A stretch of 64,000 nt of DNA from Effrenium voratum (taxonomy: Eukaryota > Sar > Dinophyceae > Suessiales > Symbiodiniaceae). Made by a program: the position numbers and the translations under genes. Positions 42,108 through 59,765 of the stretch are shown here, piece after piece. Positions within the stretch are counted from its first letter, which is position 1; the number at the start of each line of letters is the position of its first letter. Location: contig CAUJNA010003240.1 in NCBI GenBank assembly GCA_963377175.1, positions 270,501 through 334,500 of the forward strand. The letters run 5' to 3'. Under the pieces are notes generated by a model. That model worked only from the letters and a program-made list of their open reading frames with translations. It searched no databases and was not told the DNA's origin.

Positions 42108-42138
<31 letters not shown>
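42108..42138 (+). repeat. (GT)n microsatellite, insertion target on the left
   Basis: 31 bases of alternating GT directly at the left edge of the terminal repeat. A matching (GT)n run follows the right repeat. Confidence 0.9.
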
Positions 42139-42140
<2 letters not shown>

Positions 42141-42498
42141 GAGTGACAGAATGCCCTGTCACCACCCTTTCGGTTTTTCAGCAGGGGGGCAGAGAGGACT
42201 TGCAAAGCTCTGCCCAACGAAGCTCTTTGCAAGCTCCTAGGATACGGAGTCTGATCAACTCCGCGTACCTGCACAACTCGTGTGATTCAAAGTCCTCTTG
42301 GCCCGTTGTTTTTCTCGCTGTGGGTGCTTCATGTTGAACCTTGTAACGTTTTCGCAGCTAGACGGAAACCAAGTGACTGCAAGCCGAACCTTCACTCACT
42401 CGAGACTCATCTGTTGTACTCGAGACTCATCAGTTGTACTCGAAACTCATCAGTTGTACTCGAAAGATTAGCACTCTCCATCTGGAGTTCAAGTGTGT
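42130..42498 (+). repeat. left terminal direct repeat (369 bp)
   Basis: Holds three strong hairpins: GTGACAG/CTGTCAC (42143-42162), CTTGCAAAG/CTTTGCAAG (42199-42233) and CGGAGT/ACTCCG (42245-42263). At 42397-42466 a 20-bp unit (CTCGAGACTCATCAGTTGTA and variants) is repeated three and a half times. It does not start TG or end CA as LTRs do, and fits the pseudo-LTRs of Penelope-like elements. Confidence 0.9.
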
Positions 42499-42772
42499 AC
42501 CCCATTCGTGGGGAATCCTCGGGTGTACCCATTGTGTGACCCCGGGCCGGCTCTGTCGGAAAATTTGACCTCAGCGTACTTATCATAGAACAGCGGAACT
42601 TCACATTTAACCAGGAACGAGGTTTCACTAAAGGGAAGACAGCCGTCAGATCATAGAGACGTCTCACCAGTGCTGCTGATGGCTGCTGACTTGAACTTGC
42701 ATTGACTTGCATTTTGTCGGACTCGTTTCTCTCAAGATTGTGGAGTTGCGGTTGTGAGTTGGTTGCGCCATC
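42499..42772 (+). promoter_or_regulatory. leader between left repeat and first ORF
   Basis: Just inside the repeat is a stem CCCCA-TTCG-TGGGG (42500-42513). Upstream of the first ATG is a pyrimidine-rich stretch ending CTCTCAAG (about 42729-42736) that could serve as a trans-splice acceptor. No tRNA-primer binding site like that of LTR elements is evident. Confidence 0.45.
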
Positions 42773-43504
42773 ATGTCTCGACGTGATGATCGTGACAGAT
42801 CTAGGACTCGGCGCAGACGTGATCGGAGTCCTTCCCCTCAAGCTCGTAAAGCACGCCGACGTGAACACAATGACAACCAGGTCTCGGAGGGCATGGATTG
42901 GAACAACCTGGTATCTTGGCAACACAATTCCGGCTACAACTCTGCCAACAATTTCCCGATGATGCCCACCAATTTTCAATCGACTCACAGCCCCACACAG
43001 CAATTCCAACACCCAGCGATCAACTACATGATGCCGATCCCTCCAGACCCCACGCCAACGAAGTTCATGCCACCCGTGATGCCACCACCGGTCACTACTC
43101 CCCAACCTACACCGCCACCTGGACCTCCTGCGGCTCTACCGGTTCGCCCTCAGAAAGCCTGGCTTACACCATCGCCTGACTGGACACCTGGAGATGGCAT
43201 GTTTGATGTCAATCAGCTCTACAACTTTAGCCTGCCCATGACCGTTGCCAACACTCCGCATGGCAACCTGCGCGACATGTCAGGCATGGATATTCGTGAC
43301 GTTCGCCTGGTTCAAGTTATCCATGGGGGCCTCACCAACTGGCTACTCCGACCGTTCGCTCACGGCAGATTCGTGACGTGGGAAGGCTTTCGCACTCGCA
43401 CCGAGGCCTTACTTTGGAGTACCTGTTCCAAACTACTACGACGATCACAGTCGCTCAACCTGCCACCCAGACAGATGACATGGTCAAGAAGTACAATGAT
43501 CTAA
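42773..43504 (+). CDS. ORF1a, Arg/Ser-rich and Pro-rich Gag-like protein
   Basis: 243 residues from the first ATG after the pyrimidine tract. The N terminus is an Arg/Asp/Ser stretch (MSRRDDRDRSRTRRRRDRSP, about residues 1-35) resembling RS domains, which should bind RNA or target splicing speckles. Residues 75-135 are Pro-rich (PPPVTTPQPTPPPGPPAALP). After about residue 205 the frame loses protein character while the -1 frame (ORF1b) takes over. The position before nuclease and RT, and its basic/low-complexity make-up, suggest a nucleic-acid-binding Gag analogue. No zinc knuckle seen. Confidence 0.7.
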   Translation: MSRRDDRDRSRTRRRRDRSPSPQARKARRREHNDNQVSEGMDWNNLVSWQHNSGYNSANNFPMMPTNFQSTHSPTQQFQHPAINYMMPIPPDPTPTKFMPPVMPPPVTTPQPTPPPGPPAALPVRPQKAWLTPSPDWTPGDGMFDVNQLYNFSLPMTVANTPHGNLRDMSGMDIRDVRLVQVIHGGLTNWLLRPFAHGRFVTWEGFRTRTEALLWSTCSKLLRRSQSLNLPPRQMTWSRSTMI

Positions 43505-44103
43505 ATCGTGCGCATGAACTGCTCCAAGCTCAGTATTCAGCATCGCTGCGCGCTTCGACCTCTCCCACGATGGCAAGCCAGAAAGATGATGCAGAGTTGG
43601 TTACACCGCCACCGGTCAACCACACACCATCCTCGTCACCTGCCAGCTCCCTTCCTACAGCCAGCGCAGCGGCCCTTGATGGCAAGTCGTTTGATAGCGC
43701 GGTGCAACCTCGGATCATTCAGTCTCTTCACGGAGTGTCGTCACCGCCGTCCAAGCCGGCGGCGTCACAATTGCTCACCATGCACAGCACGCCGGATGAA
43801 GTTGTCAAGTACTACACATGGACCAGTGACCAGCCTCGCCTTTATCTCAAGCAATCGCCCACAACCACGACTTTGGCGTCACTGGTCAAGTGGGCCAATC
43901 ACCCGTCCCGGCTCAACGGCAACAAGTCATTAGATTCCATGGCGACGCAGCTCCTTCAAGCGCGTCAACGCATGCCGAAAGGCGACGCACCTACTCTCGG
44001 GGCGATGGCGGCTTCGTGGGGACTGGAGCCCGGCTATCTTACCAAGCTCACTGAGAAGGCATTGAGTCACCTCATCGTGACCGCTCGCCTACTCAGCGGA
44101 TGA
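43378..44103 (+). CDS. ORF1b, -1 frame continuation of ORF1
   Basis: Open in the -1 frame relative to ORF1a with no convincing ATG at its start, so it is probably read as an extension. It holds a short coiled-coil-like part (DDMVKKYNDLNRAHELLQAQ), a Ser/Pro/Ala linker, then a folded-looking region with SLVKWANHPSRLNGNKSLDS and LGAMAASWGLEPGYLTKLTE. The crossing lies near 43400-43430. I see no canonical X-XXY-YYZ slippery site, so a one-base deletion is equally possible. Function unknown; a Gag-like capsid or chaperone role is a guess. Confidence 0.6.
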   Translation: MGRLSHSHRGLTLEYLFQTTTTITVAQPATQTDDMVKKYNDLNRAHELLQAQYSASLRASTSPTMASQKDDAELVTPPPVNHTPSSSPASSLPTASAAALDGKSFDSAVQPRIIQSLHGVSSPPSKPAASQLLTMHSTPDEVVKYYTWTSDQPRLYLKQSPTTTTLASLVKWANHPSRLNGNKSLDSMATQLLQARQRMPKGDAPTLGAMAASWGLEPGYLTKLTEKALSHLIVTARLLSG

Positions 44104-44285
44104 GCAGGCATCTTAACGACCTTCGTTCTCTTATGAGCCCGGAGCGGCAACCATGTCACGGATGAGTCAAGGCTAAAACTCGTCCGTCATCTTTCTGCGT
44201 TGCACCAGTTTGATCTTGTGCTTGATTGTTCTTGCATTGCCTTGTGTGTGATTGTCTGTGCAGCTTGTATCCATGTCGCCGCCTT
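44104..44285 (+). promoter_or_regulatory. intercistronic spacer with candidate trans-splice acceptor
   Basis: A T-rich run (CTTGATTGTTCTTGCATTGC onward) ends in GTCTGTGCAG at 44263. The first ATG downstream (44273) opens a 17-codon upstream frame; the nuclease ATG is at 44286. Confidence 0.55.
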
Positions 44286-45482
44286 ATGGTAGATTTCATT
44301 GGTTGCATTTTCACCATGTTGGATGAGCTTCGCCGCTGTGGAATCTATGATGTTGTTGCACAATGGCAGTCTCTGGACAACTTTTTACACTCGTTGACCA
44401 TGTTCTCTACGTGCTGGCAATACTGCTTCCCTGGACTACCACCACCGTCGATACCAACTGATGAGTACGAATCAATCACACAACTACCGTGGTTGGGCCT
44501 CATTCTCGAAGTCTTAGTTGTGGTCCGGATTGCCCTTCAGATTCCAAATCACGCTATGTCACACTCTCAGCACACTGTGGCCAACAGGTATGAGATTCAT
44601 AGATGTCGGTGCACTGCCTATTTATTGATCAGTTTCTTACAACGTCTCATTTCCCAAGATCATGGCTACTTTCCGCCGTTCTTTGAAGTCCTTCACTTCT
44701 ACAAGGCTTCTCTCTTGTGTGAAATCATGCACTCCACTTTTGCCGACACGCGACATCTTCGCTCATTGCGGGCACGATTTCCTGACCTCTATGACTTCAT
44801 CCACGACCCAGGTCATCATCAACAACCGTGCGTCTACATCCGACTTTCCCCATGGCACACACCTTACTACGTTGGTGCGACTGATCAGGATGTTCTACGA
44901 CGTGAACACTCACGCAGTCGCAAATTTCTACAACTACTTCGAGGACGTCATGCCTTCTTCGAACCCGCGCTTCACTACTGGAAGCGATCCAATACTTACT
45001 GGCTCTTCTGTGCTGTTCCGGTTGAGATCAAACTTCCCGTTTCCTCGGTTTGGGTCCAAGAAAGCAAATGGCAATACCTGCTACGCCCGCATTTGAACGC
45101 ACCCTGGGTACACAGACTTTTGCGAAAGGTGGGCTTCCGGGAACACCTCGTTGATTTTCGACGTCACTCGTTGTCGTCTCCCACTTCCCTCGGCTTGCAC
45201 AAACGCTTTCGACGACGACTACATCCGGATCTCCAACGGCAACTACGACCCGACATGCTGGATGACATTCAGGCCCATTACTCTATTCTCTATCAGCTGG
45301 GATCCAATACAGGACATCGTTCCAAGCCATGCGTGACCTACTGTCGGCAGCTTTCCCTCCTACTCAGCTGTACTACTTTCTGCGGCTCTCCGTCTTTGTC
45401 AACGAGCCCTTCCGCTCCAAGGCGCAGAAACTCCTCGCCCAGGTGTTACGCAAACGACGGCTACAACCACCCACCACTTTGA
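44286..45482 (+). CDS. ORF2, GIY-YIG endonuclease domain protein
   Basis: 398 residues. From about residue 180 it carries a complete-looking GIY-YIG nuclease: VYI (GIY position, 183-185), YVG (YIG position, 195-197), the R-x-E-H cluster (RREH, 205-208), catalytic-type Glu at about 259 in VQESKWQYLLRPHLN, and the closing Asn at about 271. GIY-YIG nucleases nick target DNA for Penelope-like elements. Here it precedes the RT, the permuted order described for the Naiad/Chlamys group, rather than following it as in Penelope. The region before 180 is hydrophobic and unknown. The last ~70 residues overlap the RT frame, which lies at -1, and lose protein character near residue 340. Confidence 0.8.
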   Translation: MVDFIGCIFTMLDELRRCGIYDVVAQWQSLDNFLHSLTMFSTCWQYCFPGLPPPSIPTDEYESITQLPWLGLILEVLVVVRIALQIPNHAMSHSQHTVANRYEIHRCRCTAYLLISFLQRLISQDHGYFPPFFEVLHFYKASLLCEIMHSTFADTRHLRSLRARFPDLYDFIHDPGHHQQPCVYIRLSPWHTPYYVGATDQDVLRREHSRSRKFLQLLRGRHAFFEPALHYWKRSNTYWLFCAVPVEIKLPVSSVWVQESKWQYLLRPHLNAPWVHRLLRKVGFREHLVDFRRHSLSSPTSLGLHKRFRRRLHPDLQRQLRPDMLDDIQAHYSILYQLGSNTGHRSKPCVTYCRQLSLLLSCTTFCGSPSLSTSPSAPRRRNSSPRCYANDGYNHPPL

Positions 45483-47344
45483 CACAACTACTCCTACCGC
45501 CTCTACATGTCCGGAATTGGAAAGCTCTACTTGGCACATGGTTACAAAGCTGGATTGCTTCTCATCGGGATTTGTTCCCTTCTCTTTTCCTTCCAAAGAT
45601 CCGGGTGGTGGAAACTCGCAGTGCCACGTTGGGCGACAAGATCTACAACTACCGCACATGGCAGCGCAGATGGACTCCTGAAACATCCTTTCCGTGTCGC
45701 TGTTTGGACATCGATGATCACCATATACACCGAGCACATGGACATGCTGTAATGGTTGATGAGTTTTCTCGCATCAATGCGGACATTGACATGGAAATCA
45801 TGGCCGCATCAATGAAGGATCAGTACTTCGGTGATGTCGACTTATTACATCAACGTTTCACCACGCAACTTCGCAAACTTGCTCGTCGCTGGCATGTGCA
45901 TGGTTCCAGTCTTCTTGTAGATCTGCAGCCGGTTTTGACTCAGTTAATGGACACTTATCGAGCTAACCTTCAAGATCGTGCTTATTGGTCATCGACATCG
46001 TTGCAGCGCACCGTGGCTTCTCTGTCATCGTGGGTTGTTATCCCTGCGGATCATTTCCCCTCCCGCGCACATGTGATTTGTCCGTCCCTGTTTGCCATAC
46101 TGATGCGGAAGACCTTTTGCTCGGGAGATGTCTTCTCGCTTTGCCGTGAATCCGCAGCATCTTTTCGCTCTGAAGTGGTAACTACGGTACCTTCCCTCCT
46201 ACGTCAACGATATGCATGGGGACTTCGACTTCAAGCACCGTTGCCCACAGCACGCATCCTTCCAAAGCCGACCAAGGACTGGCAGAAAGCACGACCCATC
46301 ATTTCATTCTTTCGCACGTGGGCAGCTCCCTTCCTCACGGTCTTCGGCGCACTCATATTTGAACTTACCAAAGCTACTTTTCCCGACATTGCAGGTCAAC
46401 TTTCAGTACATGAACTTGTCCAGCAGCTGTGGGAATCGCTGTCAAAGGCAGATCCCGATGAATACATCCACCTGGTGTCACAAGACCTGTCAGGCTTCTT
46501 CACGTCCATTCCTACGGAACGATTCCACCAGGCACTACAAGTGCTTCTCCATCGGTACGATCAAGTTGTTGGCCTTCGCAGATCCTCTCAATGGTCAGTG
46601 TTCGAAGTAAAGTCGGATCATCGACGCCGTATGTTCAAAGGAAAATGGCGCCGTCAAACAAAGATCCCTCGAACTTTTCATGAACAAGATCTCCGGCACC
46701 TTCTGGACTTTGTCATTGACAACAGTCACTTCGAGATCAACGGATACTTGTTCCGCCAAGAACGGGGAGTCGCTATGGGATCACCAGCCGCGCCACCGCT
46801 ATGCAATTTGGTTGCCACGGTTGAGGATTTCTTCTGGCATCAAACAATGTGTTCTCTACGTTTTCGCATGCCCGACATTGGTGTGATCTGGCATGAGCGC
46901 TACGTCGACAATCGTTTCATTCTGCTTCGGGATTCAGCCCCACACTCGCCCGTGCTCATGAATTTTCTTTCCCTGGAATTTTATCGCCCACCAGTGATGC
47001 TTGAGGTTCAACATGATGACAAAGTGCTGGGCTATCGATGTGATTCTTCTTCCAGAACTATTACACCACAGCTACCTGATCATCCCTCCCAAATCAAAGG
47101 AATTCGGAGTGCCAATGATCAGATGTTTACTTATTCTTCCTGGTCTTCTCGCTCCTGGCTCATCATACGTGGTGCACAACCGGCGGTTCAGCAACAGCAA
47201 GGACTTAACGCTCTCAAGCGCCTTTATGAGGCCAAAGGTTTCGACCCCCACCTTCTGCGTGACGTTCGGCGTCGACTCGGGACAAAATCTGCATGTGAGC
47301 TTGTCATGTTGTCTCTTCTTGCGCATGCTTGTGACTGTTGTTGA
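45266..47344 (+). CDS. ORF3, Penelope-like reverse transcriptase
   Basis: The frame is open from 45266; the first ATG at 45329 gives 671 residues. RT motifs, numbered from that ATG: fingers motif ILPKPTKDWQKARPIISF (310-327); motif A HLVSQDLSGFFTSIPTERF (381-399, Asp386); motif B RGVAMGSPAAPPLCNLVA (479-496); motif C HERYVDNRFILL (522-533). The D-x-x-x-x-F-T-S-I-P motif A and G-x-A-M-G-S-P motif B are typical of Penelope-like and telomerase-related RTs. Motif C has YVDN instead of YVDD, so one metal-binding Asp is replaced. A Cys/His cluster (CRCLDIDDHHIHRAHGH, about 123-139) may bind zinc. It may be made as an ORF2-ORF3 fusion. Confidence 0.85.
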   Translation, partial: HSGPLLYSLSAGIQYRTSFQAMRDLLSAAFPPTQLYYFLRLSVFVNEPFRSKAQKLLAQVLRKRRLQPPTTLTQLLLPPLHVRNWKALLGTWLQSWIASHRDLFPSLFLPKIRVVETRSATLGDKIYNYRTWQRRWTPETSFPCRCLDIDDHHIHRAHGHAVMVDEFSRINADIDMEIMAASMKDQYFGDVDLLHQRFTTQLRKLARRWHVHGSSLLVDLQPVLTQLMDTYRANLQDRAYWSSTSLQRTVASLSSWVVIPADHFPSRAHVICPSLFAILMRKTFCSGDVFSLCRESAASFRSEVVTTVPSLLRQRYAWGLRLQAPLPTARILPKPTKDWQKARPIISFFRTWAAPFLTVFGALIFELTKATFPDIAGQLSVHELVQQLWESLSKADPDEYIHLVSQDLSGFFTSIPTERFHQALQVLLHRYDQVVGLRRSSQWSVFEVKSDHRRRMFKGKWRRQTKIPRTFHEQDLRHLLDFVIDNSHFEINGYLFRQERGVAMGSPAAPPLCNLVATVEDFFWHQTMCSLRFRMPDIGVIWHERYVDNRFILLRDSAPHSPVLMNFLSLEFYRPPVMLEVQHDDKVLGYRCDSSSRTITPQLPDHPSQIKGIRSANDQMFTYSSWSSRSWLIIRGAQPAVQQQQGLNALKRLYEAKGFDPHLLRDVRRRLGTKSACELVMLSLLAHACDCC

Positions 47345-47382
47345 TGCATTGCGTTGTGTCTGCATGCAGCTGGCTCAGAACC
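47345..47382 (+). promoter_or_regulatory. spacer with candidate trans-splice acceptor
   Basis: The U-rich stretch running from the end of ORF3 ends GTGTCTGCATGCAG at 47369, 13 bases before the ORF4 ATG. Clearest acceptor in the element. Confidence 0.6.
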
Positions 47383-48756
47383 ATGGCGGAGTACACGGTC
47401 ACCAGTCTCTCACGCTCTGACGGATCAGTGCAAACTACGAGCCGCGTGACGCTGGAGCACCTTCCCAACTTCATCAACGGCAATGAGATGCAAATGTTCA
47501 TCCGGACACACGGACTAGCACACCAGCAAAGTGTGCAATCCCACGGCCCATCCCGTGACGCTCCGGCACTTGGATCCGAGGCCAACATCCGAGCGGCACG
47601 CAATCACACCGGACGGTCCCGTTCGCGCTCACCCAGGTCCCGTTATTCCCGGATCAAGCTCACACCAGGCCCACAGGGAAATTCTGATGAGGAGGAGGAC
47701 TGGGGTGAATGGAAAAGTGATGGGAGGCGTGCTCATAGTGATCAAAGGAGGCCCCGCTCGCCTCCGTTTCCTCCCGCTCAAGTCAGTCCATCCGAGAACC
47801 GCATTGTGCTGATGCCTCTCTCAGTTCGTCAGCATGTACCCGATTTGGGCAGTCATCGCTTCAAGCTGCGCACTGGTTGCCGGGTCGAGGAAATTGCCAT
47901 CGTAGTGAATGATGTCCTTTACTACACCTTGCCCTCGATTGCCGCCTTAGTATTTCCTGAACCTGAGCTGTTGAAGAAATCGTGGGAGACGGTCTACAGG
48001 AGCCTCATGCCGCATCGCCGCAGCATCATCGAAGATGAGCAGCGGGTCAAGTCCATTTCGGAGTTTCCGTTTTCTCCGCCACCACATGGTGTCCCGGGAC
48101 GTTGGACGGATCAAGTGGTCAGAGACATTTCTGACTACTTCCAGATCTCCCCGAAGTCACTGCCGCAGCAACTCATCGTACAGCTTGGCATTTGCGAGGA
48201 AAAATGGCCATATATCAGCAGGACTACACGGTCGTATCACCACTTCTCGACGGACAAAAAGAACTCCCAGAAGAACCTCTTCGGGATCATCTTCTCGTTT
48301 GAGCCACGCCGATTGTTGCCGGACAAGCATCGCACTCAATCACAGTCGACGTTTTTCTGGTCCCACAACACCAATATGCAGGCGGCCATGAACATCCTGC
48401 GTGATGAAGAGCTGATCAGACCCTCAAAATGGCAAGAACATCCTTCCCCCAATCACGAGTGCTCAAACTGGAACGAAGTCTGGTTGCCTCCGATGGGATT
48501 TTACTGCAGGGGCAGCCTCCATTCCCAGGAAGCGGCAATCCAATCAGCAGCGCAGTTCGCGGGAATTCGCACGGATCGCCCCGTGTGTATTGGTGGCACT
48601 GCACGTCTCCGGCAACAGCATTGCACTATACCCCGTGGCGGAGTGTACGCGGACATAGCTGCTTCCCATTACTATGACTGCATTCACGCCAAAGATGGCA
48701 GGTGGAAACTCCGATCATCGATTGCGGTGCCCAGCTACATGGGCATGTTCTGGTGA
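47383..48756 (+). CDS. ORF4, 457-aa protein with RS tract, function unknown
   Basis: Starts MAEYTVTSLSRSDGSVQTTS at the first ATG after the acceptor. Residues about 75-90 are an RS tract (GRSRSRSPRSRYSRIK), followed by an acidic patch (DEEEDWGEW). The middle is a folded-looking globular part (LRTGCRVEEIAIVVNDVLYY; FQISPKSLPQQLIVQLGICE). The C-terminal 130 residues contain WSHNTNMQAAMNILRDEELI, RPS and MGFYCRGS, loosely like the H-x-T...A-x-x-I-L-x-x-x-x-I-R-P-S opening of ADP-ribosyltransferase or KptA/PARP folds. That link is weak and needs structure comparison. Otherwise unrecognised. Confidence 0.7.
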   Translation: MAEYTVTSLSRSDGSVQTTSRVTLEHLPNFINGNEMQMFIRTHGLAHQQSVQSHGPSRDAPALGSEANIRAARNHTGRSRSRSPRSRYSRIKLTPGPQGNSDEEEDWGEWKSDGRRAHSDQRRPRSPPFPPAQVSPSENRIVLMPLSVRQHVPDLGSHRFKLRTGCRVEEIAIVVNDVLYYTLPSIAALVFPEPELLKKSWETVYRSLMPHRRSIIEDEQRVKSISEFPFSPPPHGVPGRWTDQVVRDISDYFQISPKSLPQQLIVQLGICEEKWPYISRTTRSYHHFSTDKKNSQKNLFGIIFSFEPRRLLPDKHRTQSQSTFFWSHNTNMQAAMNILRDEELIRPSKWQEHPSPNHECSNWNEVWLPPMGFYCRGSLHSQEAAIQSAAQFAGIRTDRPVCIGGTARLRQQHCTIPRGGVYADIAASHYYDCIHAKDGRWKLRSSIAVPSYMGMFW

Positions 48757-48929
48757 ACGACTATGGCAAGGCAGTCTGACACCCTTTTGGGAAGAAGCGC
48801 ATGGGGTTGCCTGAGGCTCATGTTTTGATTAAGTGTGTTGCATGCTTGTTGTGTTGCTTGCCGTCGCCGCATTTGAGTAGATTACCGATTGATTTGGCCC
48901 TCTCTGTCGCATCTTCACCTGCATTGTGG
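48757..48929 (+). promoter_or_regulatory. spacer with candidate trans-splice acceptor
   Basis: Pyrimidine-rich TGCTTGTTGTGTTGCTTGCC, then AG at about 48877 or 48880 before the ORF5 ATG. Confidence 0.5.
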
Positions 48930-49571
48930 ATGGATCATGGGGATCTTTTACGTGAATGTCGGCACATGCTACTTGCCATTTCTTCGCAAATCAGTCTACT
49001 TCTGGCCGGACTGCAACGTCTTGAAGGCCAGCAGCGGCATCCACAGCCGCCACCACCGCCACCGGTTCCTGACGGCCATCCACCACCGCTACCCCCGCCG
49101 TCTACGACGCCACCGCCCTTGCCGGCAACATCAGTCCGGCCAGACTACATGGCAGCACCGGTCACTCTTGTGGCCACCTCGGACAACCGTACGGAGCACC
49201 CTGCTCACGTCCGCACGGTGAGTGTCAGTACGTCCTGGGAGCACAGACGGAGGAGAAGGTCCAGACATCGGGAGCCTCATCGGCGCCGATCTCGCAGTCA
49301 TCACCGGCGGCTTCCTGGCCGTCCTGACGACGCGGTTCCCACGTCCCGCCGCCATGCCTACACTCCCCGGCAGTCAAGGCCATGCCGGCTTGTCGACCAT
49401 CAGGTCTGTCGTATGAACGTTGACGGAACACCAGCGGCAAAAGTACCTCAGTATTTCGGCGCATGCATGTTTGCAAGCATCATGTCTTCGCAGTCCCGCA
49501 GCCTTACTTGCTTGAGTTGTCCTTGCTGTTTGTTCGGTTGCCATGCAGTTGTCGGCCGAGTTTGTGAATAA
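48930..49571 (+). CDS. ORF5, Pro-rich and Arg/Ser-rich protein
   Basis: 213 residues. N-terminal leucine-rich helix (LLRECRHMLLAISSQISLLL), then a polyproline stretch (QPPPPPPVPDGHPPPLPPPS) and a long Arg/His/Ser tract (HRRRRRSRHREPHRRRSRSH). The last ~40 residues run into the next spacer and look non-coding, so the true end may be earlier or in another frame. Probably an RNA-binding or assembly accessory; that is inference. Confidence 0.55.
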   Translation: MDHGDLLRECRHMLLAISSQISLLLAGLQRLEGQQRHPQPPPPPPVPDGHPPPLPPPSTTPPPLPATSVRPDYMAAPVTLVATSDNRTEHPAHVRTVSVSTSWEHRRRRRSRHREPHRRRSRSHHRRLPGRPDDAVPTSRRHAYTPRQSRPCRLVDHQVCRMNVDGTPAAKVPQYFGACMFASIMSSQSRSLTCLSCPCCLFGCHAVVGRVCE

Positions 49572-50316
49572 CCTGGTGGCGGTACTCAATGTCCTTGCAT
49601 CCCAAGTTGCGACAGCTCTGGACACCCTGAACTTTGCCCTGATGACCGAGCGTAGCCATCCGTCAGACACTATAGTGACTCCCAGGGCACCACGGAACTC
49701 CAGGCATGGGCTGCGCCCTCGCATCATCACAGAGCGCATTTCGTCTGACCGATCCCGCTCTCCCACTCGAATTCGAACCCGACCTTTGGACACGTCATCC
49801 ACCTGGTATATACCGGCCTTATCCCCGCCTCGTGCGGCACATCGGGATGCTGCTGACAACAATTCTGGTCGTCGGCCTGAATCGATGTTGGATCACCTGC
49901 CACCACCTCGGCCGCTTGCTCCCTTAACCCCACACGGCGGCCGAGAGCCAGGACAGATGACGCCTACGACACCTGACTCCGATTCTGATGGCTCAGTGCG
50001 TCCACATCCAAGTGCCTCGTCGTTCCGACCGTCTCCTACGGTGGTTCATGGACCTCGGGAACTTCTACAAGAATTCACCATTGCACTTCGCAATGCACAC
50101 CGTGAACCTTTCACGGCATGGACACAGGGTGAGCTGGATGAGATGGTGCGACGGAAGAAAGACAAGGATTCCAGGCCCACCTACAAAACCATTGCTCGGT
50201 TCCTTCAGAAGCCCATTGAGGAAGTCAAGCAGGCATGGAAGGTCCATCAGCAACTTGAGGCGTATTCGGCTAGCGCTGCAGGTTGTTGTGACGGTTGGGA
50301 TTGTAGTCATTATTGA
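49543..50316 (+). CDS. ORF6, SR-rich protein with Myb/SANT-like domain
   Basis: 257 residues, overlapping the tail of ORF5 by 29 bases. N-terminal leucine-rich helix (FVNNLVAVLNVLASQVATAL), an RS/Pro linker (DRSRSPTRIRTRP), then residues about 190-236 with TAWTQGELDEMVRRKKDKDS and RPTYKTIARFLQKPIEEVKQ, closing W at 232. The W-T-x-x-E-L...I-A-x-x-L...V-K-x-x-W pattern is a single Myb/SANT-like helix-turn-helix. It could bind DNA or chromatin and guide integration or transcription of the element, which is inference. A short Cys-rich end (GCCDGWDCSHY) follows. The likely trans-splice acceptor is uncertain, possibly GCAG at 49501. Confidence 0.7.
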   Translation: MQLSAEFVNNLVAVLNVLASQVATALDTLNFALMTERSHPSDTIVTPRAPRNSRHGLRPRIITERISSDRSRSPTRIRTRPLDTSSTWYIPALSPPRAAHRDAADNNSGRRPESMLDHLPPPRPLAPLTPHGGREPGQMTPTTPDSDSDGSVRPHPSASSFRPSPTVVHGPRELLQEFTIALRNAHREPFTAWTQGELDEMVRRKKDKDSRPTYKTIARFLQKPIEEVKQAWKVHQQLEAYSASAAGCCDGWDCSHY

Positions 50317-50431
50317 TCACATGAAATTTGCTTGCTTGCACTTGACTGCCATTTTACTAGGGTGATATTGCTTGCCGGTTTGGGGTGTTGCCGCTGACGT
50401 GAAGTGAATTCATGACTGAGTTGCTCAAATC
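50317..50431 (+). promoter_or_regulatory. intercistronic spacer
   Basis: TTTGCTTGCTTGCACTTGAC, then ATTTTACTAG at 50360. A first ATG at 50412 opens a different frame from ORF7. Confidence 0.45.
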
Positions 50432-51001
50432 ATGTCGGAAAAAGTCGTACAGACGTACATTACCTGGACCCATGGAGCGCAGCCGACGTGGTTACAATTT
50501 CACGGACCTGGAGCCCTACTTGACAGACCCATTCGGCAGACTACGTCACCTCCGCCCCCACCAAGTTTCCCACTGCTTCTTCCACCTCCGCCTCCTCCAC
50601 CGCCACCACCACCGGTGACTCTACACCCACAGTTTATGCCCTCAGTACGGAGCCCCTCGATCTCAGCTCCTCGCGGACAATCCTGCCCTGCCACGTCGAA
50701 ATCGCAGCGCACACGCCGCTCGATCTACAGCACTGACCATTCCCGTGATGAAGAGCTACGCAGTCCAGGGCGTTCATCCAAACGATCTCGGACAGCATCC
50801 GCTTCGGCACCGCGGAGATCTCGGCGGCCCTTTACAGTGTTCCCCTCCAAACGTGCTGGCCGTCCATCGCTGTCCCCATCGGCAAATTGCAAGCATTACT
50901 GTCATGCCATCCTGCGCCATGGGCGTAAATGTCTTTCCCCTTGTGATCGTAGACGACCAGGACATTACCATTGCAGGTGTGCGCGGCATCAACGGCGGTG
51001 A
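50412..51001 (+). CDS. ORF7, polyproline, SR and Cys/His-rich protein
   Basis: The 189-residue frame starts at 50432. It has a run of prolines (residues 39-61), a basic Ser/Arg part (RSSKRSRTASASAPRRSRRP), and a C-terminal Cys/His cluster: C153, H154, C156, H158, C167, C171, H178, H180, C181, C183, H186. That cluster could bind zinc like a retroelement nucleocapsid knuckle but is not a CCHC box. A second ATG at 50412 opens a 68-codon frame with protein-like MERSRRGYNFTDLEPYLTDP, and the 189-aa frame lies at -1 to it, so the real product may start at 50412 and change frame near the C-rich run about 50550. Confidence 0.6.
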
Positions 51002-51163
51002 AGCTTAGCAGTCGTATATTACAAACCTCGCTGCTGTGTCTCACCTTGAGTTTGAAAAGTTGCCTTGCTTTCCTTCAGCTGTGCGCGGTTGTCATTGCAT
51101 GTGTGTCTTCGCCGCAGATTTTCGATTGCTTTTAGCGGCTGCGCGAGAGCCTGTCTTGCCGCT
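51002..51163 (+). promoter_or_regulatory. spacer with candidate trans-splice acceptor
   Basis: Pyrimidine-rich, ending GTGTGTCTTCGCCGCAG at 51117; the ORF8 ATG is 47 bases further. Confidence 0.55.
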
Positions 51164-51586
51164 ATGAACCCTCAATATTTCGAGTACCAGATCGACAGAG
51201 GAGTGGAATGGATTCGAATTTACTCACCGGGCACGTGGCGACCCGTTCCCGATGATGCTCCAGTGCTGGACCCACTCTACGCTTCCACGTATCGGGAGTG
51301 GCGCAGGTCATATCGCTTCCAAGTGTACTGGTCCGAAGACAGCACCGGAGGCACAACAACGGATCCCATAGTCACGCCCAGTTCCTATGTGTCCTACCAC
51401 GTGTGGGAGTACCGAGACTGGCAAACACGAGGGTATCAACGACTTGGAGCTCCTTTACCAGCCATTGGACTCGCGATGCTCGTGAATGCAGACGCCAATT
51501 CCTCGGTGGGCTCATCGGTGCCGGATGGGGCGTGGCGAGAGCCGTCACCACCACCATTCTATGATCCTTGGAACGATTCGGAGTGA
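51164..51586 (+). CDS. ORF8, WIRIY/YREWR/YRDW family member 1
   Basis: 140 residues. Core motifs: VEWIRIYSPGTWRPV, then TYREWRRSYRFQVYWSEDST, then WEYRDWQTRGYQRLG. The same order recurs in ORF9, ORF10 and ORF11, so these are four tandem paralogues. Rich in Trp, Tyr and Arg with short acidic/proline tails (SPPPFYDPWNDSE). I recognise no known family. Aromatic/basic make-up would suit nucleic-acid or protein binding, but that is a guess. Confidence 0.75.
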   Translation: MNPQYFEYQIDRGVEWIRIYSPGTWRPVPDDAPVLDPLYASTYREWRRSYRFQVYWSEDSTGGTTTDPIVTPSSYVSYHVWEYRDWQTRGYQRLGAPLPAIGLAMLVNADANSSVGSSVPDGAWREPSPPPFYDPWNDSE

Positions 51587-51733
51587 CACTTGAGCAGCAT
51601 GTCGGATAAAATGACGCGGTTGTGCTTGCTTTGTATGCGATTCCATGTTGGGTTGTCTTGCTTGGTGTTGTGCGTTCCGTCTCCATGTGTTCGCCGCTTT
51701 CCTTTATGACTTCGAGCGGCTTGCCTGGTTGAA
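51587..51733 (+). promoter_or_regulatory. intercistronic spacer
   Basis: T-rich (TTGGGTTGTCTTGCTTGGTG) with CCGTCTCCATGTGTTCGCCG and TTTCCTTTATG. No single best AG acceptor; the ORF9 ATG is at 51734. Confidence 0.4.
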
Positions 51734-52126
51734 ATGTTCAATTGTACAGTGTATGGCACAGCACGATGGGTCCTGCCTCGCTACTTTGACTACGACATCG
51801 TCAATGGCCCAGCGAACACGAGTGTAGAATGGATTCGGATCTATGTACCGGGTCCGTGGCATCCAGTCGCCGTGAACACCTTGGGACCAGCCCCGGATGA
51901 CTCAACCACCTATCGGGAATGGCGCAAGGTCTACCACTTCGAAGTGTATTGGCCGAGGGAAAGCACAGGCGGCACCAATACAGGTGCTGTTTCGCAACCA
52001 GTATCTTATGCATCCTTCTATACTTGGCATTATAGAGACTGGGTCACCAGGGGATACCAACGACTGGGTCGCCCACACCCTAGCATTGCGCGGCCAGCGC
52101 ACCGGACCTCATGTATGCTGGATTGA
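51734..52126 (+). CDS. ORF9, WIRIY/YREWR/YRDW family member 2
   Basis: 130 residues. VEWIRIYVPGPWHPV, TYREWRKVYHFEVYWPREST and WHYRDWVTRGYQRLG align closely with ORF8, and both keep a STGG-T linker after YW. The C-terminal tail after GYQRLG is short and unlike ORF8. The closest pair in the set, so probably a recent duplication. Confidence 0.75.
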   Translation: MFNCTVYGTARWVLPRYFDYDIVNGPANTSVEWIRIYVPGPWHPVAVNTLGPAPDDSTTYREWRKVYHFEVYWPRESTGGTNTGAVSQPVSYASFYTWHYRDWVTRGYQRLGRPHPSIARPAHRTSCMLD

Positions 52127-52346
52127 CCTCTTCATCGGCATCCTCCGACTCAGATGGTGGCTGATGCTCGTCCTCGCCTTCCTGGGGAGTCTGTTCAGTT
52201 CAATTCGATTCGGGAGATTGTCTTCGATACCGGAGCCGTGCATTGCTGCAAAAGTGATTTCGTGCACTGTGGCAGTTGTTTCTCTTTCAGTAATTGTTGT
52301 CTGCAGCCGTACACCTATCAATTTGTCTTTCCGGGTTTGCGTTGTC
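52127..52346 (+). promoter_or_regulatory. spacer with two candidate trans-splice acceptors
   Basis: TTTCTCTTTCAG at 52290 and TTGTTGTCTGCAG at 52306, 41-57 bases before the ORF10 ATG. The frame is open through the spacer by chance and would encode a hydrophobic stretch. Confidence 0.55.
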
Positions 52347-52928
52347 ATGCCGTGGCTGGAATGGTGTCCGGATCCTCAACAACCAGATGCCCAGTGGGTC
52401 AAGATCTTTCATCCGGGATCATGGACTCCACATGAAGAACATGATGCTCCACCTCCACCGCACACGTATAGAGAGTGGAGGGAGTTCTATGCTCCCAACC
52501 CGGACTCAGTCGGTGAGCAGCTCAATGTCACCATGTGGTACAAAAGAGACTGGGCCACAGAGGGCTATCGGAGAGTCGCTGCCCCTCAAGCTGGTCATGA
52601 CTTTGATTCTATGTGTTTTCCTGATCATCACAGCGTGGCCACGCAATCCGCGGCATTGAGTATGTCACCGCAGCTGTTAGAAGCGATCCTCAGGTCCTCG
52701 GATGCGGCGGATTTCTCTACCGAAGAACTGACTCGTCTCCAAGAGGGGATTTCTCAACAACTGACAGCTCGCGCACGTCACGCTTCCCAACCTCATCAAC
52801 CAGTACGTGCATCACGTGGAATCACACCATCGGAGACGGTTGGGGTCTCCGAGCCATACCGGCCTGTTAATCCTTCCGACAGCTGCAAAGACAAGGCGAG
52901 TCCCATCTTCGAGCTAAATGAGGACTAG
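52347..52928 (+). CDS. ORF10, WIRIY/YREWR/YRDW family member 3
   Basis: 193 residues from MPWLEWCPDPQQPDAQWVKI. Motifs: WVKIFHPGSWTPH, TYREWREFYAPN and MWYKRDWATEGYRRVA. The inter-motif linker is shorter than in ORF8/9. It has a longer C-terminal tail with a helical segment (TEELTRLQEGISQQLTARAR). The start is chosen because it is the first ATG after the CTGCAG acceptor. Confidence 0.7.
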   Translation: MPWLEWCPDPQQPDAQWVKIFHPGSWTPHEEHDAPPPPHTYREWREFYAPNPDSVGEQLNVTMWYKRDWATEGYRRVAAPQAGHDFDSMCFPDHHSVATQSAALSMSPQLLEAILRSSDAADFSTEELTRLQEGISQQLTARARHASQPHQPVRASRGITPSETVGVSEPYRPVNPSDSCKDKASPIFELNED

Positions 52929-53078
52929 ACGCACGCGAGTGGGGTAGCGTACAAAATAAGGGTGGTTTTCACACTTTCATTACCTTGCTTGGTTGTTGCT
53001 TGTACATGGTTGTGCATGGTGCCTGTTCCTCTATCAGCTGGATCGGAGCCCGCGATACGCCATGCCTCTTACTTCGAC
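52929..53078 (+). promoter_or_regulatory. spacer with candidate trans-splice acceptor
   Basis: TTACCTTGCTTGGTTGTTGC onward, ending TTCCTCTATCAG at 53037. The first ATG after it (53061) is out of frame with ORF11; MDIDDSK at 53079 is in frame. Confidence 0.5.
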
Positions 53079-53591
53079 ATGGACATCGATGATTCGAAGC
53101 AGCACCCATGGCTCGAATACTCGGTCTGGCAAGATCAGGAGTGGGTGCGGATCTACACTCCAGGACAGCCTCAGCGATGGCACCGCGGAGAAACTGTACC
53201 TGATCTACCAGACAATTCTTTTCGGGAATGGCAGCGGGTGACTGATCCCAATGGGTGCACTGGTGAGCACGGTCAGGCATGGAACATCCGCGACTGGCAG
53301 CATCAGGGATACCAGCGCATTCTGTCTCGAATGGAGTCCTTCACAACTCATCATTCGCATGATCAATCTCTTGGTCAAGTTCGGAATTCCGATGCCATTC
53401 CAGTTGAGGAGACGTTCACCTACGCCACCCCGTTTTCTCATGGTGATCGCCAGGCTGCTTCACAACTCGCTTCAGTCCTCTATGGCGACACTCGTAATGC
53501 TCAACGTGGTGATCTCTCGTTCCCGTCTTCTGAGCGGTTTAGGGCTGTCTCTCGTTCCCCTCGCCGCGGTGGAATTTTTGGTCAACGATAG
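53079..53591 (+). CDS. ORF11, WIRIY/YREWR/YRDW family member 4
   Basis: 170 residues from 53079; the frame is open upstream to 52962, where it would give a signal-like hydrophobic start that I read as spacer. Motifs: EWVRIYTPGQPQRWH, SFREWQRVTDPN and AWNIRDWQHQGYQRIL. The most diverged copy. Ends with another RS tract (RFRAVSRSPRRGG) about 65 bp before the right terminal repeat. Confidence 0.7.
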   Translation: MDIDDSKQHPWLEYSVWQDQEWVRIYTPGQPQRWHRGETVPDLPDNSFREWQRVTDPNGCTGEHGQAWNIRDWQHQGYQRILSRMESFTTHHSHDQSLGQVRNSDAIPVEETFTYATPFSHGDRQAASQLASVLYGDTRNAQRGDLSFPSSERFRAVSRSPRRGGIFGQR

Positions 53592-53656
53592 GGACACGGG
53601 GTTGAGCATGTGGTCTTCCTGCAGAAAAGGAGACTCCTCGCCCCTCAGTGAGGGGC
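53592..53656 (+). promoter_or_regulatory. 3' leader before right terminal repeat
   Basis: Contains a purine run GCAGAAAAGGAGA (53621-53633) and a perfect 9-bp inverted repeat CGCCCCTCA/TGAGGGGCG (53639-53657) against the repeat border. Could be a terminator-like or template-recognition hairpin; role unknown. Confidence 0.45.
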
Positions 53657-54025
53657 GTGTGTGTGCGGAGTGACAGAATGCCCTGTCACCACCCTTTCGG
53701 TTTTTCAGCAGGGGGGCAGAGAGGACTTGCAAAGCTCTGCCCAACGAAGCTCTTTGCAAGCTCCTAGGATACGGAGTCTGATCAACTCCGCGTACCTGCA
53801 CAACTCGTGTGATTCAAAGTCCTCTTGGCCCGTTGTTTTTCTTGCTGTGGGTGCTTCATGTTGAACCTTGTAACGTTTTCGCAGCTAGACGGAAACCAAG
53901 TGACTGCAAGCCGAACCTTCACTCACTCGAGACTCATCTGTTGTACTCGAGACTCATCAGTTGTACTCGAAACTCATCAGTTGTACTCGAAAGATTAGCA
54001 CTCTCCATCTGGAGTTCAAGTGTGT
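53657..54025 (+). repeat. right terminal direct repeat (369 bp)
   Basis: Same length as the left copy with a single difference (T at 53843 for C at 42316). Followed at once by a (GT)n run. Confidence 0.9.
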
Positions 54026-54043
54026 GTGTGTGTGTGTGTGTGT
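54019..54043 (+). repeat. (GT)n microsatellite, insertion target on the right
   Basis: Alternating GT continuing from the end of the right repeat, ending GTTGCCCC. With the left run it brackets the element. Confidence 0.85.
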
Positions 54044-58462: not shown

Positions 58463-59039
58463 ATTTTTTACGTTTGCAGGGCTGTGCACTCCCTTTGAAA
58501 GGAGGATACGAGTGTCAACGTTCCCAAGCCCTGTAAATTCGAATTTATCATGTTTTCCTATTGCCACCTGGCCGGTTCCTTTTGGCCCGTTTCAGAGACT
58601 TGGGATAGGCGCCTGGGAGGCGCTGTTCTGAGTTCCTGCTCCCAAGCCAGCAAAGCTAGCTTATGGGGAGAATTTGTGGGGCTCAGGCCTTGCAATGGCA
58701 ATCCCAAGAATGTCCAATCTCAAGCATGCAACATGTTGTGACTCTACAAGGACTTGTAAGCGAAGCAGCGAGTTCAGCCAGCAGCACGGAACCTCAAGTC
58801 TGGGTTGTTCTATGCGTTTAGTTTAGTATGTGCTGCAGTTGGCAGCAACCCTTGGGCTCGAGTTTTGTGTCATGGATTTTCTCAGTTTGTTTGCTGCGAG
58901 CTCGATGATCCAGTTTAGTTCTTGTGCCATGCTGCTGCTGGCAGGCAGTTTTTGTGCAAGCAGGACAGTATTGAATGCCAGGCAGGCCACAAGCACAAGC
59001 ATGCATGCGCACAAACAGACAGAAAGACAAACAAACAAG

Positions 59040-59340
59040 CAAACAAACACACACACACACAGACACACACACACACAGACACACACACACACAGACACAC
59101 ACACACACAAGCAATCAAGCAAACAAACAAGCAAACAAGCAAGAAAACAAGCAAGCAAACAAACATACAAACACAAAGAAAAACAATAAAGACATAAACA
59201 AAGAAAGAAAGACATAAATGAAAAGAACGGCAATGAATGAACTCAAGAAACAAGAAAGTAAGAAGCACACAGTAAAACAAGCAAAATTACCAACAAACAA
59301 GCAAACAAACAACAAGAAAGCAAAATAACAAGCACACAGG
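59040..59340 (+). repeat. (CA)n and AAACA/AGCAA simple sequence
   Basis: (CA)n blocks separated by CAGACA, then A/C/G-rich pentanucleotide-like repeats. Long open frames on both strands are artefacts of this composition. Confidence 0.9.
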
Positions 59341-59397
59341 ATACAACTGCTCTGCATTTGACAAGGATTCAAGCGGAGCTTGACGCGCAGACTGGTG

Positions 59398-59765
59398 TAT
59401 GCGTGTGTTTGTGTTTGTGTTTGTGTTTGTGTTTGTGTTTGGTTCGTGTTCGTGTTCGTGTTCGTGTTTGTGTTTGTGTTTGTGTTCGTGTTCGTGTTTG
59501 TGTTCGTGCGTGCGTGTGTGTGTGTGTGCGCGCGTTTGCGCGCATGCATGCTTGCGTGCATGCCTGCGTACGAGCGCGAGCCTGCGCAAGGGTGCATGTG
59601 GGCGCTCGCGTGGTTGTGTATGTGTGTGTGTGTGGTTGCTTTCTCGCTTGCTGGTTTGCGTGTTTGCTGTTTGCTTGTGTTTCTTGGTTTGCTGCCTCTT
59701 TGCTTGTTGTCTTGCTTGTTTGCTTGTTTTTTGCTGGCTTGCATGCCTGCCTGCTTGCTTGCTGT
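59398..59765 (+). repeat. (GTGTTT)n / (GTTC)n / (GT)n simple sequence
   Basis: Hexanucleotide GTGTTT and GTGTTC units, then CGCGCATG-rich and TTGCTTGC-rich blocks. Complementary in type to the CA-rich tract 60 bp upstream. Confidence 0.9.

Follow-up and report, generated by a model that had tools for sequence, protein, structure and literature searches.

The 64-kb stretch of the Effrenium voratum genome analyzed here (64,000 nt of contig CAUJNA010003240.1, positions 270,501 to 334,500, G000:C3058:270501-334500 in our numbering; hereafter the window) carries a mobile element of 11.9 kb (about 12 kb). We interpret it as a complex Penelope-like element (PLE), a retrotransposon with its endonuclease N-terminal (Chlamys/Naiad-like), in which ten co-inherited cistrons lie between pseudo-long terminal repeats (pLTRs), and give this interpretation a probability of about 0.85. 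The two direct repeats are 369 bp each and identical at 368 of 369 positions, with one differing site. They enclose a series of + strand open reading frames (ORFs), as described in an initial annotation made from the sequence. The 5′ pLTR begins with GTGTGTGTGC and terminates with AAGTGTGT. The ten cistrons, all on the + strand, are ORF1, EN-RT (endonuclease and reverse transcriptase), and ORF3 to ORF10 (Table 1).

Ten Cistrons Recur in Order Across the Genome

The pLTR was searched against the whole assembly (1.156 Gb, 3699 contigs), giving 44 listed matches, with 40 of 1511 first-look candidates scored. Among the matches listed, nine other loci have two same-strand repeats 8 to 20 kb apart, and all nine were examined. 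Eight of these (C3523, C702, C3571, C477, C1091, C3397, C3677, and C452) contain all ten cistrons in the order of the window copy. ORF7 to ORF10 matches below 45% identity were omitted from this comparison, since the paralogues cross-match. C702 has a local inversion spanning the end of ORF3 and the start of ORF4. In C3397, ORF5 is interrupted by a 7-kb insertion (L019/L020, C3397:360371-367564) with several ORFs of its own. The ninth locus, C391, is short and rearranged, and C1269, examined in its 5′ part, has ORF1 and part of EN-RT. C3571 and C425 (L014 and L030) have identical 5′ flanks and are a single duplicated site, representing a duplicated region or alternative haplotypes of one insertion; C425 is outside the eight full copies. 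The recurrence of the same ten cistrons in order at eight of nine loci argues against chance nested insertion as the source of the accessory ORFs. The multicistron Penelope-like element proposed in the initial annotation is thus borne out, with full-length copies of the same ORF order elsewhere and (TG)n edges at many copies.

Selection was assessed by pairwise nonsynonymous to synonymous rate ratios (dN/dS) among nine copies. The median dN/dS per ORF was 0.07–0.38 in frame versus 1.06–3.62 when the frame was shifted by one or two bases. For seven ORFs, the in-frame value was the lowest of the three in all pairs; the same held in 22 of 26, 17 of 18, and 29 of 31 pairs for ORF7, ORF9, and ORF10, respectively. 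Between 18 and 33 of the 36 pairs were used; pairs with insufficient synonymous change or too few codons were discarded, as were matched segments below 60% protein identity. Every one of the ten cistrons is under purifying selection. Pairwise distances of the nine other ORFs also correlated with those of EN-RT (r 0.92–1.00), and no more than 2 of 1000 permutations reached such values. Conserved order, selection, and the history shared with EN-RT together indicate that conservation extends beyond the RT and nuclease and that the accessory ORFs are not unrelated nested insertions. All 44 matches scored elsewhere had an EN-RT free of stop codons, a biased sample taken as the best of 2150 first-look candidates. 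Public predicted proteins spanning internal deletions or read-throughs fuse pieces of ORF1, EN, RT, ORF3 to ORF7, ORF9, ORF10, and the pLTR in various pairs, as seen at the protein level only.

Table 1. Features of the Element in the Window Copy (Positions of the Window)
Feature	Position	Strand	Evidence
5′ (TG)n flank	42108..42129	+	sequence; flanks of other copies
5′ pLTR, 369 bp	42130..42498	+	368/369 identical to 53657-54025; same boundaries in other copies
pLTR fold	42143..42263	+	hairpins 42143-42149/42156-42162 and 42245-42250/42258-42263; helices S1 and S2; covariation
Helix S1	42187-42194/42208-42215	+	covariation
Helix S2, overlaps S1	42195-42207/42225-42238	+	covariation
Conserved leader, about 170 nt	42499..42668	+	mean column identity 93% over 14 sequences; common to short elements
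ORF1, basic, arginine/serine (RS)-containing protein; deletion with frame change near 43460	42773..44103	+	other copies; selection
Hairpin in ORF1/EN-RT spacer, weakly supported	44158..44187	+	z −1.93, 8/200 shuffles as good; two-copy alignment
EN-RT, single ORF for N-terminal GIY-YIG endonuclease and Penelope-type RT	44286..47344	+	motifs; other copies
ORF3, RS-containing, 457 aa from this ATG	47383..48756	+	other copies; selection; no family match
ORF4, basic, Pro/Arg-rich; 3′ end in shifted frame	48930..49433	+	167 aa in other copies; selection
ORF5, basic; 3′ end in shifted frame	49543..50316	+	231-242 aa in other copies; selection
ORF6, Pro-rich, C-terminal Cys/His cluster, 189 aa	50432..51001	+	other copies; selection
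ORF7, paralogue 1, 140 aa	51164..51586	+	other copies; selection
ORF8, paralogue 2; 3′ end in shifted frame	51734..52177	+	147 aa in other copies; selection
ORF9, paralogue 3, 193 aa from conserved ATG	52347..52928	+	other copies; selection
ORF10, paralogue 4	53016..53591	+	187-191 aa in other copies; selection
End hairpin directly before 3′ pLTR	53640..53656	+	kept in short non-autonomous elements
3′ pLTR	53657..54025	+	368/369 identical to 42130-42498
3′ (TG)n flank	54026..54043	+	sequence; flanks of other copies

EN-RT and the Accessory Proteins

The window copy is damaged in ORF1, EN-RT, ORF4, ORF5, and ORF8, and ORF sizes elsewhere were taken from seven pieces of four copies. EN-RT is about 1,020 aa long in intact copies (1019 and 1023 aa), and the window copy has a frame change near 45281-45314. 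The GIY-YIG and RT reading frames listed separately in the initial annotation are therefore both present, as parts of one frameshifted ORF. ORF1 is likewise split in the window copy and is one protein of 472–492 aa in other copies (488–492 aa where intact; 492 aa in P0068). RS proteins had been predicted as well; ORF1 and ORF3 do contain RS, and the first RS ORF proved to be a piece of the frame-changed ORF1. ORF3 has 470 aa in C477 and 580 aa with an upstream extension in C3523, and is split in C1091. ORF7 in C1091 reaches 163 aa from an upstream ATG. ORF9 is about 190 aa from the conserved ATG in other copies and is broken in C477.

In the family EN-RT P0002, the EN motifs are at residues 191-278 and the RT motifs at 666-881, placing the endonuclease N-terminal of the RT. 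The GIY-YIG motif was identified by eye, as were the PLE-like RT motifs. A CxC at residues 479-481 lies between EN and RT, in columns conserved in a 10-sequence alignment, and by eye the stretch from VYI to YVG of EN lacks a Cys pair in the alignment. The distant relatives P0055, P0059, and P0062 (25–30% identity) also have EN followed by RT, and P0060 begins after EN.

The accessory proteins fall into two groups by isoelectric point, which is 9.6–11.7 for ORF1, ORF3, ORF4, ORF5, and ORF6 (basic) and 4.6–6.9 for ORF7 to ORF10. The latter form the paralogous family noted in the initial annotation, with 50–54% (ORF8) and 28–31% (ORF9 and ORF10) identity to ORF7. The Cys/His protein noted there is ORF6. 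No strongly hydrophobic stretch was found, the highest Kyte–Doolittle 19-mer mean being 1.91. Public protein clusters contain 241, 190, 134, 118, and 71 members in long form for EN-RT, ORF1, ORF3, ORF5, and ORF10, respectively. Searches with Pfam and PDB profiles gave no significant family match for any accessory protein (ORF4 and ORF6 as single sequences, Pfam only), and the Myb-like protein of the initial annotation found no support in either. Three candidate matches were rejected: CDC73_C for ORF10 proteins (E 0.006, 16.7 bits versus a cutoff of 32.8), FXa_inhibition for an ORF6 piece (E 0.019, not significant), and Circo_capsid for ORF1 (E 0.036, in 1 of 25 members only, not significant).

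Insertion Site

Both outer flanks of the window copy are TG tracts, indicating a (TG)n insertion site. A flank was scored as TG when the 12 nt closest to the element had at least 8 TG/GT steps out of 11; by this cutoff, 10 of 18 5′ flanks (one of the 18 being an internal junction) and 7 of 15 3′ flanks qualified. The background rate of this cutoff was 0.25% in the window and 1.2% in the fetched loci with CA included. Among the remaining flanks, several carry shorter TG runs and a few lack them altogether. These results support a mobile unit that is bounded by pLTRs and goes into TG tracts. C350 contains two element copies head-to-tail. At L032 (C732), two repeats are joined end to end through a common GTGTGT, as would result if one element had integrated at the TG end of a second. 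In its 3′ part, the pLTR contains 20-bp tandem units (42398-42465 and 53925-53992) whose number differs between copies. Inverted simple repeats, CA- and TG-rich, are located near the element at 58980-59740. Tandem telomeric repeats were absent from the 64-kb window.

pLTR Fold, Leader, and Short Elements

A fold of four helices with 34 pairs was found in the pLTR. Across 20 distinct sequences, 99.3% of cells were paired, a value reached by 0 of 500 shuffles (84.2%), and sliding the partners left 32–45% paired. This alignment excluded L026, in which one helix carries a deletion, and any row containing N. The covariation score, 0.385 versus 0.129 in shuffles, was likewise reached by 0 of 500. 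Further pair types showed no excess (18 versus 21.0 in shuffles). The overlap of S1 and S2 would imply a pseudoknot or an alternating switch. The data fit RNA and single-stranded DNA alike, and the fold is presented as a candidate new functional RNA.

The leader downstream of the 5′ pLTR is 93% conserved although the pLTRs diverge by up to 20% between copies. Its predicted fold was no more stable than shuffles (z +0.94). Short non-autonomous elements with repeats about 1.48 kb apart were found at C3615:194253-196089, C1375:14928-18215, and C2446:1158217-1159948 (L026, L028, and L038), those at C1375 being in tandem. The C3615 and C1375 units, which were compared with the long element, match it only at positions 1-539 (repeat and leader) and in the ∼20–32 nt before the 3′ repeat; their interior is C/T-rich and unrelated. 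Since the short elements keep only the pLTR, leader, and end hairpin, the cis signals likely reside there.

Expression and Proposed Mechanism

The spliced-leader sequence has 364 matches in the assembly at no more than one mismatch, and the reversed control has 0, as befits a dinoflagellate host. Perfect spliced-leader sequences are clustered on one strand at C722:109307-122977, often at a spacing of ∼136 bp, likely a spliced-leader RNA gene array. In the window copy, the spacers between cistrons are 38–182 nt long. The spacers (1606 nt) contain 8 instances of the motif TTGCTTG and the coding sequence (9552 nt) contains 0, a post hoc count uncontrolled for composition. Because the spacers are short and the host has a spliced leader, we infer separate trans-spliced mRNAs.

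The element RNA would accordingly be polycistronic, with host spliced-leader trans-splicing making each cistron its own mRNA. EN-RT would bind the pLTR/leader RNA, cut TG tracts, and start reverse transcription at the GU tract on the edge of the repeat. Internal initiation has been described for a PLE (PMC11167929). The basic proteins ORF1, ORF3, ORF4, ORF5, and ORF6 may coat or carry RNA, and the small paralogues ORF7 to ORF10 may act as assembly or host-interaction subunits. A more elaborate picture is speculative, and we consider it possible at best: a telomerase-lineage retroelement with a virus-like set, in which a ten-protein machine of RS-containing and paralogous proteins would assemble round RNA recognized via a pseudoknotted pLTR fold, be trans-spliced by the host leader, and be parasitized in trans by short elements carrying only cis signals.

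Weighing the Explanations

Several observations weigh against a complex PLE with ten functional cistrons. The PLE assignment is based on motifs and architecture. RT motif C reads YVDN instead of the usual DD pair in 9 of 9 RT sequences (RYVDNR at P0002 residues 880-885, with Asn for the second Asp), also in the relatives at ∼25–30% identity; a later count gave YVDN in 24 of 24, with a pattern that required the closing R and could miss other forms. P0002 had no Pfam match at E up to 1, and EN-RT had no PDB match. P0055 matched RVT_1 with E 3.8e-5, and its 23.9 bits are below the curated cutoff of 29.6. EN-RT is one open frame in only two of the eight full copies (C3523 and C1091) and is broken in six. 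For the pLTR fold, 15 pairs changed on both sides, no more than in shuffles (mean 13.7, with 124 of 500 reaching this number), and most of the covariation reflects one split between two sequence types (14 versus 6 sequences). Spliced-leader-tagged ORF3 copies numbered 0, with an exact pattern and the leader end at most 30 nt from the ATG. The sole structure model, that of ORF3, failed with a mean predicted local distance difference test (pLDDT) score of 37, and the roles proposed for the accessory proteins are guesses from composition. An ADP-ribosyltransferase identity considered for ORF3 is likewise a guess.

Three other explanations were weighed against these data. A simpler PLE of ORF1 and EN-RT could have captured unrelated host or mobile genes, comparable to the pLTR-bounded nonribosomal peptide synthetase (NRPS) gene of Adineta vaga, leaving the extra ORFs as passengers. 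The pLTRs of PLEs can mobilize enclosed foreign DNA (PMC3846280), and the C3397 locus shows a later insertion that landed inside the element. However, at eight of nine loci the eight ORFs additional to ORF1 and EN-RT are found in the conserved order, and they are under purifying selection and share the history of EN-RT. Capture may account for the origin of the accessory ORFs and not for their maintenance, so this explanation is largely refuted and very improbable. A second possibility, an endogenous virus-like agent that is based on a Penelope RT and uses ORF7 to ORF10 and/or ORF1 as particle proteins, would be in line with ten genes, four small tandem paralogues, basic RS-containing proteins, and a structured end that could serve as a packaging signal. 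This explanation is unlikely, as no capsid profile in Pfam or PDB was matched significantly (including Circo_capsid, above), strongly hydrophobic stretches were absent, and no confident structure was obtained. The search confirmed no viral contigs.

The cistrons could also be pieces of one or two polyproteins produced by frameshifting, read-through, or splicing. Overlapping frames in the window copy and the EN-RT frame that stays open into downstream sequence in some copies (1466–1518 aa, 8 of 44 matches) point in this direction. ATG-to-stop ORFs of similar size in other copies and the spacers of the window copy argue against it, making a polyprotein origin most improbable. We retain the complex Penelope-like retrotransposon as the best explanation.

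Comparison with Known Systems

A ten-cistron endonuclease-bearing PLE with all cistrons under selection would show that the PLE class can build complex gene sets, which host trans-splicing could make workable as polycistrons. The element contributes six accessory protein types (ORF1, ORF3, ORF4, ORF5, ORF6, and the ORF7 to ORF10 family) without a significant family match, and its short partner elements help to locate the cis signals, which opens the mechanism to experiment. In full-text searches of open-licence papers, none of the listed titles and abstracts dealt with an element of this kind.

The closest resemblance is to Chlamys and Naiad elements (Craig et al. 2021), which reportedly have an N-terminal GIY-YIG followed by RT, a CxC between them, pLTRs, tandem copies, and microsatellite insertion, all features seen here, with (TG)n as the microsatellite. 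Their RT is also said to contain an insertion-in-fingers domain. Chlamys/Naiad elements are not known to carry a canonical hammerhead, nor the Chlamys EN to have the CCHH motif. Similarly, Rfam gave no credible match in the window copy, including no ribozyme or hammerhead, and the EN motif lacks a visible Cys pair, as in Chlamys. Unlike Chlamys/Naiad, which have one EN-RT ORF, the present element has ten cistrons, about 12 kb, a dinoflagellate host, and a covarying pLTR fold.

PLEs were unreported in TSAR (telonemids, stramenopiles, alveolates, and Rhizaria) before Ectocarpus, according to PMC12477816. Canonical Penelope/Poseidon elements share pLTRs, tandem copies, and GIY-YIG with RT in one protein, whereas they have a C-terminal EN, one ORF, and a hammerhead (PMC11167929); here the EN is N-terminal, the ORFs number ten, and no hammerhead was detected. 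PLEs are described as compact, with one or two ORFs, excepting the Terminons of bdelloid rotifers, which are likewise multi-ORF PLE-class retroelements with accessory genes (PMC6431247). The same source describes Terminons as having an RT protein without EN, telomere attachment, lengths of up to 40 kb, and hammerheads beside telomeric repeats, whereas the present element has EN and resides in (TG)n. The accessory genes of Terminons, which include exonucleases, esterases, and Rep, are a different set from that found here. Since Terminons are multi-ORF PLEs already known, the E. voratum element varies an existing theme.

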